From NCBI GenBank assembly GCA_947041065.1, contig CAMRCV010000009.1, positions 1 through 10,087 of the forward strand: a stretch of DNA of 10,087 bases, in the 5' to 3' direction. This stretch comes from an uncultured Mycoplasma sp. (lineage in GTDB: Bacteria; Bacillota_I; Bacilli_A; Mycoplasmatales; Metamycoplasmataceae). Every line of letters begins with the position of its first letter. Positions within the stretch are counted from its first letter, which is position 1. Below the pieces are notes generated by a model, which was given only the letters and a program-made list of their open reading frames with translations, ran no database searches and was not told the DNA's origin. Made by a program: the position numbers and the translations under genes. This document shows, one piece after another, positions 1,013 through 10,087 of the stretch.

Positions 1013-1891
1013 ATGAGTCAAAAATATGTAAAAGAATTTATGGAAAAGAATATTAATCTTGATGTAGATAGATATATAAAAATAATAAAAACATACAAAA
1101 ATACAAAAGAATTATTAGAGAAGAGTGGTAATTTTGCAAAAATTTCAAAACAAGGCTCTGTTGCCACCAAGACATCAATAAGACCTAAAAATCCGGAACA
1201 TGAATATGATTTAGATGTAGCTGTTCAAATTAATAATAACAATTTTATATCTAAGAAAAATGAATTAGAAATTATATTAAAAAATGAATTTGGTAATAGA
1301 GTTTTTAGAAAAAATAAATGTGTTAATGTTGTTTGAAATAAAGAATTTAATGCTGATTATGTAATTATGCAAAATTTAAATAATCATCAGTCAATCTTTG
1401 ATGAAAGCAAAAACAAAGAAATAAAATCTGATAATTTAAATTTAATTAAAAATATTAATGATGTTTTTTCTAAGTCAACTAGTGATGCACTAAGAGATAC
1501 TTCTAAATTAATAAAATTTTATTTAAGACAACACAAGGAAGTTAGTGGGTTGATTCCTTCAATTGTACAAAATCTTTTGATTTGTGTTAATGCTGGATCT
1601 AAAGATTTGGGATATATGGGACAAATGACAACCACCATTTCTAACATTATTTATTTTTTAAATAATTTAAAAAATTCAGGCACAATTTTAAATACTTATA
1701 TAAATCCTTCTAACTCTAGTATAATAAATTTAAATATCAAAACTTTAATTGATATGCAAAATATTTCTTTAGTACTTCAGGACTTAAAAATAGATATTAT
1801 GAAGTTATCGTTAAGAGTGTTAAATATAAATTCAGAAATAAGGTCTAAAAATTTAGGTTCAGCAGTCACAGAAAAACCATGGAAGATTTAA
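1013..1891 (+). CDS. CBASS cyclic-oligonucleotide synthase (CD-NTase)
   Basis: This 292-aa cytosolic nucleotidyltransferase of the cGAS/DncV-like superfamily would make a cyclic oligonucleotide alarm signal on phage infection. One TGA (1334-1336) is read as Trp. Motifs in order: QGSVATKT, the G-S nucleotide-binding loop (G48, S49); EYDLDV with the two metal-binding aspartates D66 and D68; and ADYVI with a candidate third aspartate D115. The remainder is the helical C-terminal half, as expected for the family. The start is set by GGAG five bases before the ATG. The gene overlaps the E2-like gene by 13 bases and is first in a three-gene operon with a Cap15-type effector, which independently supports CBASS. 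The C-terminus ends EKPWKI rather than in the terminal glycine known from several E2-regulated CD-NTases. The nucleotide product and exact clade cannot be told by eye. Confidence 0.9.
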
Positions 1892-2427
1892 TTGAATACT
1901 TTAATTTAAATTTAGATTCAAATAAGTATTATTTTGTTTTTATAAAAAAAACACATATTTTTGAATTTCATTATAAAAACAGTTTGAAATGCCAATTATC
2001 AATAAAGAAAATTTATAAAATTAAAAACCCTAAATTACTAATTATAAATAAAGAAGATTTCTTTCATATTAAAGATGCGCATTTAGAATTTGATGGGAAA
2101 GCTTGTTTATCTTTAAGGACCGATGAAATCCTAACCCCTGAAGAAGTTTTGGTGAGAGTTATTGATTGATGTGAAAATTTATACAAAAGAAATATTGGGG
2201 AAATGGAATACCAAGACCATGGATATAGACATTACTTTGCCGGTGTTGTTGAAGAATATTTTTCACTTAATTCATTGCCTTTGTTGGAAGTGTATTGTCA
2301 TAAAGTTAATGAATATGATTTATTTAAGATCGCAAGAAAGAATGCCCATTTCAAAAATTACAGTAAAATTGATATGAAAAAAGAATGGAAAAATGTAAAG
2401 GAAAAATGAGATGAAATTATGAGTTAA
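1879..2427 (+). CDS. CBASS stand-alone E2-like conjugation protein
   Basis: This 182-aa protein needs two TGA codons (2167-2169, 2407-2409) read as Trp. Residues about 45-105 resemble prokaryotic E2 ubiquitin-conjugating-like proteins of CBASS: H68 is followed eight residues later by C76 in DGKACLSL, matching the H-x7-C pattern of the family, then a conserved-type Trp (IDWCE, W97). C76 would be the thioester-forming cysteine. In short type II CBASS such an E2 acts without E1 or JAB protease and links to or regulates the CD-NTase. The position between CD-NTase and effector fits that role. The ATG overlaps the CD-NTase end by 13 bases with no strong RBS, suggesting translational coupling. The C-terminal part (about 110-182, including QDHGYRHYFAG) is less familiar. 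Family assignment rests on one motif plus context. Confidence 0.72.
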
Positions 2428-3010
2428 GAAATTTATTATATTATTCAACCTTACTATGGCGGCAATGGCGGCTATATTTGTTATTGTTTTTTCTACATGA
2501 GATAATAATTATTATGCATATTTTGCGATAATTCCTATTGTTTTGCAGTTTTCTTTTAATGCTTTCATGAATATAATTCCGGATTATTCTACAAATAAAT
2601 ATTTACATTTTTTTTATGAACAATCTTTCGTTGGTTGTTATGAAGCTGATTTTAAATATAGCGCTTACATCAACAGTGATAAAAAGTTAATGCAAGGAAT
2701 GAATAAAATTTGATTTTCATTAGAAATAAGTGATGATGGTAAAATTATTAAAAAACAAAAAACAGTTGAAGGTAGTGATTCAACATCTGATAGTGAATCT
2801 TATATTGTATCTTCGTCTCAAGATAAAAAGACGATTGTAATATACTTGAAATACATTCAAAAAGCGAATTATAAAGACAACTCTGACCGAGTACATGACG
2901 GATATGAAATAATAGAGTTTGATAAAAAACAACAAAAAATAAAAAATTCTATATACTTCACTGAAAAACCTTCTGCAGGAGAAATAATTAATATTAAAAA
3001 AATAAAATAA
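2411..3010 (+). CDS. cap15: Cap15-like CBASS effector (2 TM plus beta-barrel)
   Basis: This 199-aa membrane protein appears only with TGA as Trp (three such codons, W4, W30 and W101). Two hydrophobic helices at about 8-28 and 36-56 are followed by a soluble, strand-rich domain from about 70 to 199. That domain shows the Cap15/S-2TM-beta signature: GCYEADF near its start, IVIYLKYIQ, VHDGYEIIEF (H162, G164), then IYFTEKPSAGEI (Y182, G190) near the end. In this family the barrel binds the cyclic nucleotide and the protein assembles in and damages the inner membrane; here it would act on the single mollicute membrane. The ATG at 2411 lies inside the E2 gene (17-base overlap), with AAAGGA eight bases before it. 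The stop codon is one base from the stop of the convergent RE2 gene, with no terminator hairpin visible. Confidence 0.82.
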
Positions 3011-3011
3011 A

Positions 3012-4349
3012 TTATTTTGAACTAATAACTTTGATAACATCTTCTACTTCGTTACTGTTTAATCAGTATTGATGATTAGTAATAATTTGATTAAAAGGAG
3101 TTGTTATAGTATCTTTTCCATTTTCGCCATGAGGTCTTAGGTGAAATCCTTGATTGTCGGATTTGTGAATTAAATTTGTAAATCTTTTTCCATTCTTAAC
3201 TTCTATATCCATTCCAAAAAGAAACTTTGATTTAGTGTCTTCATAAACAATTTTTGCTTTTTTAATTAATTCACTATCAAATTGAAAAAGTAAAACATCT
3301 TTTAAAATAGATTCATTTTCTCTTTTTTGTCATACGATAAATAAAAATTTATACGATGTTAAAAATGTATATAACTCACTTTCATCAAAAGGAATGTTAT
3401 CAATAAATTCTCTCAAATTAACATTCATTAACCCTATTTCTTCTTTTAATTTTCCGGTATTTTTTAATTCAATATTCTTTATCTTAAAAATACTTTGTTT
3501 AATGTTAGGGATTTTTGAATAACTATCAACGCCCATTATTTTGTTAATGATTTTTACTTTTTGATTTTTATCATTTGAAATTTCAATATTTAGTTTTTGA
3601 TAAATGTTGATCATACTCATTCCTTTAAAGGGTTGTATTTTATCAATAATAAAATTCATAACATCTGCTTCAGGTACTTCAACGCCTTCGCTATAAAATA
3701 TTTGGTTAACATGGTTTGGTTTTCAACTAAAAGCTCTAGGTTTTACTAATGTTTCAGAGTTAGGTTGTTTTACCAAAGATTTCCCTGTTCCTTTTGTACA
3801 TGCTCCTAATTGTTTAGTTAGTCCTTCGCTTAATTCTTCAGCTTTTCCATCTTTAATTTTTGAAAAAATAACATCATAATCTTCTGTTAGAGTTTTGATG
3901 TTGGTTGATAAATCCAATTCAACATATTTAAAATCAACAATTACTCATTCAGACATTGGTTTGTCATATCTGTATTCATAAAAAATATAAAGAGTTTTTT
4001 TCATTTTGAAATAGATGTGTGATTTTTCAAAAGTTGGTTCATCAAGAATAGAACCATAGTTAATCATCCCTAACGAGATTCTTTCTTTAGCTTTATATTT
4101 TCTACCTACATTATCAGGTTTTTTATATTTTATTAATCCAGTTACCTTTAATTCAATCCCTAATTCTTCAAAATCAGGGGCACTATTGTTGTTTACTTCA
4201 ATATGAAATACCTCTTTTTGAATTAAGTTACCCAGTTTGCCCTTATCTGCTGATATTAAAATATTTTCTTGAGAAACAATATCTTTTACTTTTTTGTTCT
4301 TAATTTCTTCACATTTTTTAAGTATTTGCTCAAGAGATGTATATTCCAA
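3012..4349 (-). CDS. Sau3AI-like type II restriction endonuclease RE2 (GATC)
   Basis: One 445-aa frame runs from a TTG start (4347-4349) to TAA at 3012-3014, with four TGA codons read as Trp; under the standard code it would look like three fragments. Sau3AI is about 490 aa, so the length fits. The TTG start is chosen because GGAGG lies four bases upstream and the protein then aligns with RE1 from residue 1. The N-terminal MutH-fold domain keeps the catalytic triad D59, E66, K68 in PDFEELGIELK, followed by KAKE. Near the C-terminus, HLRPH (403-407) followed by GENGKD resembles the RP-x-A-x-A-K region of MutH, as expected for the second MutH-like DNA-binding domain. With the divergent C5-methyltransferase it forms a restriction-modification pair, most likely recognising GATC. 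Specificity is inferred from family. Confidence 0.93.
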
Positions 4350-4443: not shown

Positions 4444-5586
4444 ATGTCGAAACCAATTAAAGTAGTTGAATTATTTGCTGGTGTTGGTGGTTTCCGGGTA
4501 GCAGCTCAAAGATCAGGCAAAGATTTTGATTTTATTTGAGCTAATCAATGAGAACCAAATAAAAAAATTCAACATGCTTTCGATTGTTATGAAAGACATT
4601 TTGGAGTTTCAGATAAACACTCAAATGAAGATATTTCTATTGCTAAAGAACAAATTCCTAAAAAATTTGACCTTCTAGTCGGAGGATTTCCTTGTCAAGA
4701 TTATTCAGTAGCAACAACTAAGGCTAAAGGTATTGAAGGAATCAAAGGTGTTCTTTGATGAGAAATCGATTGAATATTAAAAAATCGTAATCCAAAATAT
4801 GTCTTACTTGAAAATGTAGATCGTTTATTAAAGTCTCCTGCCAAACAAAGAGGTAGAGATTTTGCCATCATCTTAAAATGTTTTAATGATAATGGTTATA
4901 ACGTGGAATGAATGGTTAATAATGGTTCTGATTTTGGTTTTTCACAAAGAAGAAAAAGAGTTTTCATCTTTGCTTACAAACAATCTCAGAAAAAACAAGA
5001 TATATTTAAGCGTGCTTTTAAGTTCGAGTTAATAGATAAACCACTAGAAGTTAATATAAATTCTTACAATGATTTACAAGACCTTTCTGATACCTATAGT
5101 GAGGGAAAGTTCTTAGAATATGGAGAGATGAAAAGCGGAATTGCAACAAGTTCAAAGTTTTTGAGCAAATATGAAGGTGAAAAACTTGTGCTTAGAGACA
5201 TTCTTATTCAACAAAATCTAAATAATGAGTTATTATTAACTAATCATCAATTTGAAAAAATGGAATATTATAAAAGTCACAAACGTCTCATAAGAGAAAA
5301 GAGTGATGGAACTAAATATAATTATTCTGAAGGTAAAATGAATTTGTATGATGATTTAGATAAAGCGGCTAGAACTATGTTAACTAGTGAAGCTACTTCC
5401 AATAGATCAACACATATTGTACAAACTAAGCAAGGGGCGAGATTTCTTTCTCCTGTTGAATGTGAACGTTTAAATGGATTTGATGATAATTGAACAGAAG
5501 GAATGCCAAATAGAGCAAGATACTTTACAATGGGTAATGCTCTAATTGTTGGCGTTGTTTCTGAGATAATGAAAAATATTAAATAA
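4444..5586 (+). CDS. DNA (cytosine-5)-methyltransferase, Sau3AI-type modification enzyme
   Basis: This 380-aa enzyme has seven TGA-encoded Trp residues. It carries the C5-methyltransferase motifs in order: I, ELFAGVGGFR (9-18, SAM binding); IV, GGFPCQDYS with nucleophile C84; VI, ENV (123-125); VIII, QRRKR (168-172); a target-recognition region of about 190-325; IX, RFLSPVECERLNGF; X, GNAL near the end. It would methylate cytosine in the host's copies of the RE2 site, inferred as GATC because RE2 is Sau3AI-like and lies divergently next door. M.Sau3AI is slightly longer (about 410 aa). The start has AAAAAGGA nine to ten bases upstream. Only 12 bases separate its stop from the next gene on the same strand, so it is probably co-transcribed with 5599-9262 and beyond. 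Confidence 0.96.
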
Positions 5587-5598
5587 TAAGGATTTTTA

Positions 5599-8019
5599 AT
5601 GAGAACAATTTGAGATTTACATATCATTAAAGATAAAAATATTTCAATTAAGCTTATTGAAAAATGAGATGAAATTGGAATTGAAATAAGTGATTTTTAC
5701 AATAAAACTTATAAAATAGAAGGAAAAATCATGAATGATATTGCTGATTTTTTGATAGAAAATAAATTTAAACAACCATTTAATAACTTAGGTATTTTAT
5801 GTAAATATAATTTAACAGAATCAATCCTAAAACACCTTGACAATAATTTGGATTTAGATATTTTGCTGTTGCTTAAAAATAATAATATTTCTTTGTATAA
5901 TAAAAATACAAAAAACCTTGAAGGTGTTTCTTTGGAAAAAATGGAAACAGCCTTATCTTTATATTCACAAAGTGAAGATTATTTTGACATAAAAAATCTA
6001 GCATCTATATATGAAAACATAGAAGATCAAGGAAGTAGCATTACTTCTTTGATAAATAAAACTTCTCTAGATCCAGAAATTGTTTTTCAAAATATTGATA
6101 AACTTATTTTAAATAAAGTTGTATTTCCATCGCCAGAAGGAGTAAGAAAAGTTTCTTATGGTACGACAACCAAAATGGATATTATGACAGTTGTAAACGA
6201 TAATATAGACTCGCACTCATTATCTTATAAATGTATTTCATTGATTTTGAAAAAATATAATTTTTCAAAAATATCCCAAGAATTAAATCTTAACTCTAGA
6301 GAAGTCAAAAAAATGTGCAAACCTCTATATGATTTTAAAATTTTAAATAAAAATTCGTCTTTATACTTTAATATGATTTATGACTTTAATGTTCCTTCTC
6401 AAATATTTTGTGAAATATTTGAGATTAATATTGAAACGTATAATTACCTAAAATATTTTTACAAAAAAGTTAACAGTGAAGATGACGGAGAATACAATGA
6501 AATTAATTTTTTTAATGAGTTAAATATTGATCAAAAAGAGGCTTATTTGAAATATAATAATTTAATTTTTGAAAACAACGAATTGATAAAAATAAATTTT
6601 CATGAAATATTAAATTTGTTTATCCACCTTAACAAGGGCAAAGTTTTTCATATTGAACAATTAGAAAAAGAGTTCATTGAATTTGCAATGGAGCGAAATT
6701 TGATAATTGAAAAAGGTAGAAATACAATTGCTAAATTAGAAAGAAATGAAAGTCTAATTTTATCTTTTGGAAAAGAAGTCAGGTATTATGATTATTCTTT
6801 GATTGATAAAAATGTATTGTCAAATATAGAAGATATTCTTTTAAATTATAAGGGTTTATATTCAAGTAAGTATTTTTATGATAAACACACATTTTTCAAA
6901 CATGATTTAGATATTTGAAATCATTATGAATTACATAATTTAATTAAAAAATATTTTAGCGATATACAGAATAAAGGTATTTTAATTAAAAGGATGCCAA
7001 ATATTTTAATTGGTTATAAAGATAAAAAAGAATTTTATAAGCAATTAATTTTCGAATTGGCTCCTATCAAAGAAAATGATTTTTATAATATGCTAAATTT
7101 GGAATATGGAAATGATATACCTACTCTAAAATCAAATTTACCAGTTTTACTTTCAAAATACCACATCAATAATGAATATATAATTGACTTTATGTCATTG
7201 ACAGATATTCAAGAAAATAACATCCTTAATGAGTTGCATAAAGGCGACATCCAACAAGATATTATTTCGATCGATATTGTTAAATCAATTTTCAATCAAT
7301 TTAACATACCAGAAGAAATGTTTCATAATAAAAATATTTTAAAATTAGGTTATAAAATTGAAAAATCTTATATTTTCAAAAAAGAATACAACTATTTTAC
7401 AGATGCAATTGCTGCTGAAATGATTGGAAAAGGAATGTTTGATAAAAATATTTTCACAAAATATAATAGGTATGAATATATGGATAAATTGTTAAAAGAT
7501 AAAAAAATCTTTCATTTTACAAAAAACAAGTGCATAACCAGAGAAAAATTATTAAGCAACAAATTCAATGAAAATTTATTGAATGAATTACTTAGCAGTT
7601 TAAATAATATTCATGAAGAATTGGGTGAAAGATTTTACTCTGTAAAAATGATCAGAAATGAAATGAATGAGAAGTGAGATGATTTTGGATTTGAAGATTA
7701 TTTTTTCGAATCTTTATTAGAGCACGCTTTGGAATGAATGGTAATTAGAACCACGAACAAAATATTTTATAAAGAAAAAAAAGTAATTACAAACTCTAGT
7801 TTCATTGAATATTTAGTTAGTGAGTTTGGTTCTGTTTCTAACAGAGATTTGAGTTATCATTTGGAAGATAAATATTTTATTATTATTGAAGAAGATAAAT
7901 TGGAAGTTTATCTAAAAAAATGCGATAATATTTATTACAACAACGAATTAAAGAAAAGTTTTATTGATAAAGATAAATATTATGATGAATTAGAAAAATT
8001 TGATGAAAGCAAGGTTTAA
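5599..8019 (+). CDS. 806-aa uncharacterised helical protein with HTH-like segment
   Basis: A single frame from ATG 5599 to TAA 8017-8019 carries five TGA Trp codons; read with the standard code it would break into four pieces. AAGG lies seven bases before the ATG, just after the methyltransferase stop. I do not recognise a named family. The protein is Lys/Asn/Ile-rich and mostly predicted helix, with no signal peptide, clear membrane segment or Walker motif. Residues about 221-243 (NFSKISQELNLNSREVKKMC) look like a helix-turn-helix of the sigma region 4/LuxR kind, and a nearby stretch (FCEIFEINIETYNYLKYFYK) looks like a second helical repeat. WDEIGIEISDF near residue 23 and WDDFGFEDYFF near the end may be related elements. 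It is followed after one base by the ParB-like gene. I infer a DNA-binding or scaffold role in a module with the ParB-like and PLD proteins. Confidence 0.9.
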
Positions 8020-8020
8020 T

Positions 8021-9262
8021 ATGAAAATAGATTTATTGGATATAGTAGGAAAAGGCGAAGGTGTAGAATTAATAAACAAAACTAAAAGTGTTGTTTTGCA
8101 TGGTGTAAAAAAAGACTTGCAAGTTTACAAAATAAGTTTAAATTTATTGAACTATAATACTAAAAACGGAAGAATTTCAAGTCAGATAAATGAACATGAA
8201 AATGAAACAGGAATTGAATTAAATAAAGAATACATTGTAGCTTCATCTGAATTGAACAATTTGATTGAAAAATTTATAATTAACTCTAATAAAACAGCGT
8301 TCAAATCTACAAAGAATAGTATTGATAATTTTGGACAACATGAAACCGGAGTGGTTCTTCATGATGGAACTGTCATTGATGGAAATAGACGTTTCACTTG
8401 TTTGAGAGTTTTGTCTAAAGAAAATTCAAACAAATTAGAATCTTTATTTTTTGAAGCAATTATATTACCTAAAGATATTTCTAGAAAAGAAATTAAACAA
8501 TTGGAGTTACAAATACAACATGCAACAGAAGAAAAAGTTGATTATGATGTAATGGATAAGATAATTGACGTTTATAAATATATTAAAATTGAAAAAGAAT
8601 TAACTGTTGAAGAATATGCTAAAAATAGTAATTGAGATAAACAAAAAATAAATGAATATTTAGAAACTTATGAATTAATTGATGACTATTTAGAAAGCAT
8701 TCACAGTAAAGGTAAGTTGTATTTGGCAACAAATTGAAAACTTCAAGGTCCAATGAGGGAAATTTGATTAATTCTTAAAAAAATAAATGATATAACAGAT
8801 AAAAATAATATTAAAAACACTTTATTTAATTTAATAAAAATATCAAGTAGTGGAGATTTAACGAGGGTCATAAGGGACAATGGTAAAACTTTGTTAGCTA
8901 TGTCTAAAAATGACGGAGAAGAATCACAAGCAGTATTTAAAAAATTAAGCGATTTAGACGTTGAATTGGACAACATGTATGACAACTCACTTCCCGTAAA
9001 CGAAAATTTAGCAAATATTAGATCGAGTAAATATTCTAGTGAATTCAAAGAAAGTCTAGAAAATCATGATGAAAATCTAAGGTTTAAAAATGAAAAGAAA
9101 TTAGAAAAAGAAAAATTAGAAAGAATTTATGAAATGATTAATTCTATTGATTTGAAAAAAGTGGAAATAAGTTCAATTGAGATGAAAAAAGAAATAATTG
9201 ACATTTGTGAAAAAATAGAAAATAAAATAGTTGAAATAAAAACTAATGCTGAAAAATCTTAA
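8021..9262 (+). CDS. ParB/Srx-fold domain protein (DGNRR motif)
   Basis: This 413-aa protein has three TGA Trp codons. The start at 8021 follows the previous stop by one base, with GCAAGG six bases before; an in-frame TTG/ATG pair at 8000-8005 would lengthen it into the upstream gene and is less likely. Residues about 34-150 form a ParB-like N-terminal domain: VYKISLNLLNYNTKNGRI (35-52), then LHDGTVIDGNRRFTCLRVL (113-131), the ParB box in which the arginines bind or hydrolyse nucleotide. Residues about 160-250 (QIQHATEEKVDYD, then helices with VEEYAKNSNWDKQKI) fit the KorB/ParB-type HTH region. The last 80 residues (KNEKKLEKEKLERIYEM) are charged and coiled-coil-like. There is no ParA gene here, so plasmid partition is unlikely. 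ParB-like proteins next to PLD or helicase nucleases occur in defence loci, and I infer DNA binding or nicking there. Confidence 0.85.
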
Positions 9263-10087
9263 TCTTAAAAATTCTTATACAACTCAATCTTCAGATATTA
9301 TAAAGGAATTTTATATTCCTGTTTTTAGTGAAACTGAAAACTATGATAGAGCAACTGGTTATTTTAGTTCTGCTATTTTAAAGCTATATTCTAAAGGTTT
9401 GGAATATTTCAAAATAAACAACGGAAAAATAAGGTTTATTATGTCTCATGAAGTTTCTGAAAGTGATTTTTTAGAAATGCAAGAAGCTTATGCAAATATT
9501 CAAGCAAGATCTGAAAGTGAATTTTGGGATGATGATATTATCGAATCTAGAGAAATATCTAACCTTGCTTATTTAATAAAAATAGGAATGGTTGATATAA
9601 AAATAGCTTTTATGACTAAATCTACAGGCATCTATCATTCTAAATTTGGAATTTTTTCAGACAAAGAAAATAGTGTATTTTTTAACGGTTCGAATAATGA
9701 AACTTATAGTGCAGTACAATCTAACGCCGAGAGATTTGATATAACTCTTGATTGGGCGGGTGCATCTAATAGAGAAATAGCTAAAATCGAAGATGCTAAA
9801 GCAGAATTCGAAAGAACTTGGAATAATAAAGAAGAAGGTGTGATAACAATGAGCCCCTCTGATACCTTTTTCAACAAAATTATTTCATTTAGCAAGGGGA
9901 AGTTGATTTATGACAATGGTGCTTTAAAGATCAATTCTGTTTTACTCGATTTTAATGATGAACAAAATTTGGAAATTAAATTTAATATTAAATTTAATAA
10001 AATATCCGAGTCCGATTCCTTTTATATAAAGAGAATAAAATATTTAGTAAAGAATGTAGCTGATGATAGAATAAATTTAATTGACAA
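9246..10087 (+). CDS. PLD-family nuclease-domain protein, 3' end beyond window
   Basis: This frame is open from ATG 9246 to the window end (at least 280 aa) and overlaps the ParB-like gene by 17 bases, with no clear RBS, suggesting translational coupling. The N-terminus FYIPVFSETENYDRATGYFS matches the conserved opening of phospholipase D-like nuclease domains that sit in front of SNF2/DEAD helicases in restriction-type enzymes. The catalytic HKD half-site is YHSKFGIF with H and K, then FFNGSNNET ten residues later. One HxK site per chain implies a dimer, as in BfiI-type PLD nucleases. Whether a helicase follows cannot be seen. All three visible Trp codons are TGG and none is TGA, unlike every neighbour, which hints at a different origin. 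Confidence 0.85.
   Translation, partial: MLKNLNLKNSYTTQSSDIIKEFYIPVFSETENYDRATGYFSSAILKLYSKGLEYFKINNGKIRFIMSHEVSESDFLEMQEAYANIQARSESEFWDDDIIESREISNLAYLIKIGMVDIKIAFMTKSTGIYHSKFGIFSDKENSVFFNGSNNETYSAVQSNAERFDITLDWAGASNREIAKIEDAKAEFERTWNNKEEGVITMSPSDTFFNKIISFSKGKLIYDNGALKINSVLLDFNDEQNLEIKFNIKFNKISESDSFYIKRIKYLVKNVADDRINLID

Follow-up and report, generated by a model that had tools for sequence, protein, structure and literature searches.

A BIG-ParB-PLD module behind a C5 methyltransferase in an uncultured Mycoplasma, a probable defence operon of the AbiR type

The stretch of DNA analysed here, referred to as the window, is a 10,087-nucleotide contig of an uncultured Mycoplasma sp. (CAMRCV010000009.1, assembly GCA_947041065.1). 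Directly behind a C5-cytosine DNA methyltransferase gene, it carries three tightly packed genes coding for an 806-residue protein that we name BIG, a ParB-like protein and the N-terminal part of a protein with a PLD domain. The three genes are a real and widespread unit, and their layout is not due to chance since the same order recurs in tens of genomes from different genera. Judged by described features, the window operon is probably an AbiR-type, methylation-gated DNA-targeting defence operon, because the helicase component and the protective methylase of AbiR agree with the PLD form of the module. The initial annotation had proposed an undescribed defence module. In our judgement defence looks right. 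The word undescribed is probably wrong since AbiR, matched here by description and not by sequence, has the helicase AbiRc and needs a protective methylase. Apparently new are the anatomy of the system (ParB fold, PLD-SNF2 fusion, RNA-polymerase-like recognition protein), the coupling of nuclease and methylase, the Sau3AI-derived readers devoid of the catalytic half, and the spread of the module.

Anatomy and recurrence of the module

The window constitutes the entire contig C9 of a draft genome that totals 641 kb in 116 contigs, with a completeness of 75%, and its G+C content is 22-29% by kilobase across the 10,087 bases. It is read correctly only with TGA coding for tryptophan (genetic code 4). 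This recoding matters, as the BIG and ParB-like genes are both broken under translation table 11. TAG recoding gave no longer frames for the module and was rejected. Under code 4, the forward strand carries BIG at 5599..8019 (806 residues, 5 in-frame TGA; supported by a family profile and a structure model), the ParB-like gene at 8021..9262 (413 residues, 3 in-frame TGA; supported by a motif and a model) and the PLD gene at 9246..10087 (frame 9246-10085, no TGA; supported by PADLOC and Pfam). The last of these runs off the contig end after its N-terminal 280 residues and is truncated because the window is a complete contig. BIG starts 12 bases after the methyltransferase end at 5586, the ParB ATG lies at 8021, 1 base past the BIG stop (an alternative TTG is found upstream at 8000), and the PLD and ParB genes overlap by 17 bases. 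The gene lengths and the junctions of +1 and -17 initially annotated thus stand under code 4.

BIG had been noted as a protein without known family, and no believable match was indeed obtained in Pfam, PADLOC or NCBIfam. Its family profile contains two RNA polymerase alpha-CTD-like domains and a sigma-region-4-like helix-turn-helix (about residues 221-261 in the window protein). The structure model, which is weak over the first 130 residues, contains a winged helix, and the fold matches listed for it mostly cover this one element. Residues 513-798 form a portable C-terminal module, called BIG-C here. BIG is proposed to be a recognition or adaptor protein. The ParB-like protein also has no believable match in the three collections. 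The ParB-type box seen initially is confirmed as IDGNRR at residues 119-124. The structure model consists of a ParB/KorB/Noc-type nucleotide domain plus a helix-turn-helix and displays the tested features of the ParB/Srx superfamily. Such a predicted fold points to DNA loading.

The third gene had been described as a PLD nuclease. The PLD domain holds: the protein matches PADLOC PbeA (5.3e-56) over the N-terminal part of the model only, reaches 26.9 bits with Pfam PLDc_2, slightly below the cut-off of 27, and carries the catalytic-type motifs HxK at 131-133 and GSxN at 148-151. The free nuclease does not, its relatives being PLD-SNF2 fusions. A helicase had been suggested beyond position 10087 and its C-terminal end was found, on the assumption that contigs C9 and C42 are adjacent. 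When the same genome was searched with the complete relative L018, contig C42 proved to open (C42:10-513) with a fragment that aligns to residues 677-843 of the 851 and carries the helicase C-terminal domain; the middle part of the protein was not found in the assembly. Because the PbeA match is N-terminal only and the helicase C-terminal part lies at the start of C42, the third gene very probably codes for a PLD-SNF2 fusion that a break in the assembly has interrupted.

A search of one genome per species yielded 121 relatives of the ParB-like protein, of which the best 80 were used, giving 79 loci (L008 and L087, being equal in length, are apparently the same contig and only L087 is included). 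An SNF2 helicase and/or PLD gene follows ParB on the same strand in 73 of them, within 30 bp in 71 (median -8). Upstream of ParB, a BIG relative or BIG-C is found at 62 of the 79 loci, within 60 bp in 58 (median -1). Where no separate helicase follows, ParB and helicase are fused in a single protein (L038), the locus has two ParB copies, of which the second was taken (L017), the locus is cut by a contig end (L048, L063), or a longer ParB has no helicase behind it (L081, L086). These longer relatives, like P0110 and P0120 in the database, measure about 570-580 residues; P0110 and P0120 carry PF18731, which we take to be a HEPN-type family. The three families were found together in other genomes, as a module travelling as a unit and often located beside restriction-modification (R-M) genes.

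Among the hosts are Bacillota, Actinomycetota, spirochaetes, Gastranaerophilales and one archaeal bin. With the window's own genome included, ParB-like relatives occur in 5 of 135 genomes of its family, and the module in 9 of 392 genomes drawn from its phylum. Among 72,556 plasmid records, 66 carry a ParB-like relative, of which 52 are from Enterococcus. A scan of viral contigs with the window ParB returned no match, and a staphylococcal ParB query matched 4 of 50,697 phage records. The module is rare, patchy and sometimes plasmid-borne, as is typical of genes with a role in defence or in mobile elements. A further ParB relative in the database, P0232, comes from L. lactis bv. diacetylactis; none of the records encountered bore the name AbiR.

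Two loci of the window's family have an unusual ParB gene. In L007, a 3,776-bp contig of a congener (region 1-2538), it lies in two pieces on opposite strands, next to a tyrosine-recombinase-like gene that by eye is likewise in two pieces. Either the assembly is faulty here or the locus is rearranged, and perhaps switchable; a clear inverted repeat that would explain it was not detected, the best among the 25 of 145 pairs listed being AT-rich and imperfect. In L009, from another member of the family, a distant ParB and a helicase-like gene (8091-10115) come right after what by eye appear to be rpoB and rpoC, the similarity being weak.

The nuclease domain, the methyltransferase and the Sau3AI genes

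The module exists in two forms. In the PLD form, to which the window belongs, the gene directly after ParB codes for 840-895 residues with a PLD domain (43 of 82 neighbour-assigned loci), and the HxK and GSxN motifs are invariant in all 43. In the PLD-less form, the downstream gene codes for 600-660 residues and is not matched by the PLD model (28 of 82 loci). For statistics, one locus was retained per cluster of ParB proteins at least 80% identical, that is 60 clusters from the 79 loci, and a PLD domain is present in 36 of the 57 that could be typed, 3 of the 60 being cut. A methyltransferase was counted when it matched either the window enzyme or a second query derived from L068 at E<=1e-6; L068 and L073 are counted only through the latter. 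The main test was restricted to clusters in which ParB has flanks of 7 kb or more on both sides, 38 in all. There, the C5 methyltransferase accompanies 20 of 25 PLD-type clusters vs 1 of 12 PLD-less ones, with 1 cut (Fisher p=5e-5, an optimistic value because the clusters still share ancestry). Over all 60 clusters it accompanies 26 of 36 vs 2 of 21, with 3 cut (p=5e-6, optimistic for the same reason). The proposed link between methyltransferase and module therefore looks right. The idea that the enzyme guides the complex fares less well, as it more likely protects the host.

Several loci weigh against a strict rule. The PLD-type clusters L014, L015, L037, L046 and L085 lack this methyltransferase, and L045 and L076 are PLD-less and possess it. 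A second-round neighbour scan covered 50 of the 66 listed genes; for the five PLD-type exceptions, no methylase was present among the 25 of 60 families listed (50 neighbours scanned). The PLD-less forms need another explanation, such as motor-driven blocking or a nuclease encoded elsewhere.

The surroundings of the other loci and the plasmids extend these observations. The list of flanking genes omits 11 loci, namely the window, the mycoplasma loci L007-L009 and near-duplicates. It comprises 132 genes, and the products of 121 were scanned. Among these 121 proteins, Pfam identified 15 C5 methyltransferases and 7 MutH proteins, and 15 match the PADLOC model that is the best one for the window methyltransferase. 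Plasmids were searched with a PLD-SNF2 query from L023, itself cut: 7 of the 8 listed records covering at least 80% of the query belong to the 23 that encode the methyltransferase at E<=1e-40. Enterococcus accounts for none of these 23, and at least 22 of the Enterococcus plasmid matches listed cover the helicase part only. In the Streptococcus family, 4 further genomes gave a match and the two best, which were examined, both contain all five genes. Vsr endonuclease genes, which would suit 5-methylcytosine, are located in the C5 methyltransferase cassettes of L097 (13501-13938) and L098 (16211-16684).

In the window, the methyltransferase gene (4444..5586, forward strand, 380 residues, 7 in-frame TGA) is matched by the Pfam C5 family (1.1e-66) and by PADLOC MTase_II PDLC03329 (4.5e-139), and its product likely protects the host. 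Upstream, on the reverse strand, 3012..4349 codes for a Sau3AI-family (MutH-like) restriction endonuclease of 445 residues. It barely reaches the NCBIfam restrict_Sau3AI equivalog cut-off (300.8 vs 300 bits) and matches Pfam MutH (9.7e-19). The GIELK motif is at residues 64-68; a loose ExK pattern is also found in its C-terminal half, at residues 292 and 381. Elsewhere, Sau3AI-like genes are frequent companions of the module.

Other genes complete the picture of the region. A second Sau3AI gene copy lies at the contig edge (3-770, reverse strand) and may not cut, as its ExK reads QxK (GIQLKVTG). The two copies flank, on either side, a probable operon of the cyclic oligonucleotide-based anti-phage signalling system, CBASS (1013-3010, forward strand), whose overlapping genes code for a CD-NTase (PADLOC cyclase, 1.5e-14), an unassigned 182-residue protein and a weakly matched Cap15-like two-transmembrane effector (PADLOC, 2.8e-4). 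Past the helicase end on C42 (553-5454; locus L094), genes for a small nuclease-like protein and, split over two frames, for a Dam-like N6 methyltransferase were recognised by eye on the other strand, as were HNH-like and Mrr/NTPase-like proteins. With such R-M-like and nuclease-like genes, the region has the look of a defence island.

Recognition partners, proposed mechanism and alternative explanations

A direct connection between Sau3AI and the module is provided by fused genes. The L021 protein (1,311 residues) consists of a complete Sau3AI (19-460) followed by BIG (465-1309). At 7 of the 79 loci, belonging to five clusters (L013, L017, L018, L019, L020, L024 and L026), a protein of about 510-518 residues consists of the Sau3AI C-terminal half joined to the last third of BIG, and a Priestia plasmid carries the same fusion. 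The Sau3AI half of L018 aligns to the C-terminal part of solved Sau3AI chains (2reu, 7xm0 and 4pxg, 257-503). The N-terminal half, which bears GIELK in the window enzyme, is missing from these fusions. The C-terminal domain of Sau3AI binds a second GATC without cutting, and the C-half/BIG-C proteins may be non-cutting GATC readers. This absence of catalysis is argued from the missing N-terminal half since the loose ExK pattern also occurs in three C-half-only proteins.

The ParB-helicase pair is encountered with other partners as well. On the Lactococcus plasmid L095 (5119-13133), the ParB and SNF2 helicase genes come directly behind Type III mod and res genes, with overlaps of about 11 bp at both the res-ParB and ParB-helicase junctions. 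In Mammaliicoccus sciuri, a Type III Mod gene lies two genes upstream of ParB. In L050 (3145-13064), the scanned member of a six-locus actinobacterial cluster with ParB at least 80% identical, an Eco57I-like methylase, a T5orf172-ResIII protein, a BIG-C protein, ParB and the helicase are encoded in a row. A BIG homologue in L089 was rejected: its score was due to its membership in the first model's alignment, and a cleaner model gave no BIG match. By position and by eye, the L089 protein behind Type III Mod resembles Type III Res; a BIG-C/Type III Res fusion was sought in L089 and L095 and not found. As a tentative generalisation, which we consider possible though still doubtful, Type II, Type III and Eco57I-like R-M systems could share one ParB-SNF2 effector core via swappable adaptors. 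Interchangeable readers (BIG or Sau3AI C-half/BIG-C) would place a nucleotide-dependent ParB-type clamp, rather than the endonuclease itself, on restriction sites that lack methylation, and the clamp would then recruit the SNF2-PLD motor-nuclease.

For the window operon, the following mechanism can be envisaged. BIG, through its alpha-CTD-like, sigma-4-like and winged-helix domains, would recognise a feature of foreign DNA, in some relatives jointly with a Sau3AI-derived reader. The signal would most likely be unmethylated GATC or something near it. Loaded by BIG, the ParB-like protein would act as a clamp that depends on a nucleotide. An SNF2 motor would be recruited and would move on or remodel the DNA, and its fused PLD domain would cut or nick it, so that phage DNA replication would stop. 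The C5 methyltransferase would modify host sites and the machine would spare the chromosome, the Sau3AI endonuclease responding to the same signal as a conventional arm that is in part independent. The domain anatomy backs the steps of recognition (BIG or Sau3AI-derived readers), clamp, motor, nuclease and host protection through C5 methylation; the unmethylated GATC signal, loading by BIG, cutting by PLD and the anti-phage effect are deduced. The initial division of the complex into recognition, ParB and cleavage components appears sensible and loading by ParB fits the fold; nothing supports nicking by the ParB-like protein. BIG and the ParB-like protein are candidate equivalents of one AbiR component each and PLD-SNF2 is the candidate equivalent of AbiRc.

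The operon could belong to another defence system, similar in general nature to AbiR but distinct from it, namely an unnamed ParB-SNF2 effector pair operating on differing recognition modules (BIG, Sau3AI readers, Type III R-M, Eco57I-type R-M). The location of the pair directly behind Type III res in L095, and behind Eco57I-like and ResIII genes and a BIG-C protein in L050, speaks for it. PADLOC 2.0.0 furthermore has no model for BIG or ParB, neither of which was matched among the proteins scanned. The helicase and protective methylase of AbiR, however, match the PLD-type form closely and make this alternative rather unlikely.

It is very improbable that an ordinary Sau3AI-type R-M pair simply lies beside a separate operon. 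In favour of such unrelated neighbours, the methyltransferase is also met away from the module, 16 of its 23 plasmid records being absent from the PLD-SNF2 and ParB matches listed, and the Sau3AI-like R-M of Listeria is described as an ordinary two-gene system (PMC10059834). The Sau3AI-BIG fusion of L021, the C-half/BIG-C fusions and the non-random association of PLD domain and methyltransferase all contradict it. Still less probable is a partition-like system maintaining a plasmid or island through ParB, the helicase serving the DNA transactions of the element. The ParB fold, the 66 plasmids carrying it and the ParA-type genes upstream in Exiguobacterium would suit this role, but among the 50 proteins scanned from five loci only 4 were ParA (AAA_31), the 25 families listed (of 97) for the 121 flanking proteins of other loci do not include it, and a PLD nuclease with Sau3AI partners fits defence better. 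If the AbiR-type reading is true, the system would be an instance of a nuclease domain and a self-protecting methylase tending to co-occur across bacteria, and of a ParB fold put to use in immunity and not in segregating chromosomes. The mycoplasma copies are further hidden by the TGA code, in addition to the gap in PADLOC.

Comparison with known systems

In DISARM as in Dpd, DNA modification goes with SNF2-type helicases and PLD-type proteins. Dpd also has a ParB-like protein, DpdB (PMC12839542). In contrast, none of the nine window proteins matches DrmA, DrmB or TGT in Pfam, PADLOC or NCBIfam. The PbeABCD or CxC ABC-ATPase-DndE systems are closer by their PbeA protein, a PLD domain with an SF2 helicase, which is the best PADLOC match of the window PLD part, and some of them are described as carrying C5 methylases (PMC10853773). 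The partners differ: BIG and the ParB-like protein are found here, and no PbeB, PbeC (ABC-ATPase) or PbeD (DndE-like) in the window or, by eye, on C42 past the helicase end. Filing the module as PbeABCD was rejected, only the PLD-helicase being common to both.

Sau3AI-type R-M is described as an endonuclease with a methyltransferase (PMC10059834). The window has both genes, adjacent to each other, with an endonuclease at equivalog level. It differs by the helicase-nuclease operon attached to them and by relatives that reuse the Sau3AI C-half without the catalytic one. Work on Listeria reports helicase genes next to Sau3AI-like R-M, with no function given there: 20 of 30 helicase genes lie in a region flanked by type II R-M (PMC10059834), and a helicase lies upstream of the enzyme (PMC3935953). 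Among the open-licence papers listed, none was found to describe, by a different name, a three-gene system of the ParB/PLD-SNF2/sigma-like kind.

In Lactococcus, plasmid pKR223 bears AbiR next to LlaKR2I, a GATC R-M system. In a 2006 study, AbiR reportedly consisted of three genes in an operon and was toxic without the methylase; the title of a 2006 reference names both the LlaKR2I methylase and AbiR. The literature presents AbiR as a multigene system known since 2000 (PMC6458302), lists AbiRc among defence proteins with an SF1/SF2 helicase domain (PMC12278908), states that AbiR requires an associated methylase for host safety (PMC2661086) and reports that it inhibits phage DNA replication (PMC8765062). 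In the portions of the open-licence literature covered, no mechanism of AbiR was found. The window differs from AbiR by its host, a mycoplasma relative using code 4, and by its intact Sau3AI gene, which precedes the methyltransferase gene and lies on the other strand. It resembles AbiR, as far as descriptions and not sequences can be compared, by a helicase component (PLD-SNF2 in the relatives and the piece on C42), by a three-gene operon of conserved order and by a linked methylase, 12 bp upstream of the operon and next to a Sau3AI equivalog whose family suggests a GATC target. If the operon is indeed AbiR, its anatomy of protective methylase, ParB-type clamp, SNF2-PLD nuclease and RNA-polymerase-like recognition domains makes the mechanism of this defence system testable.

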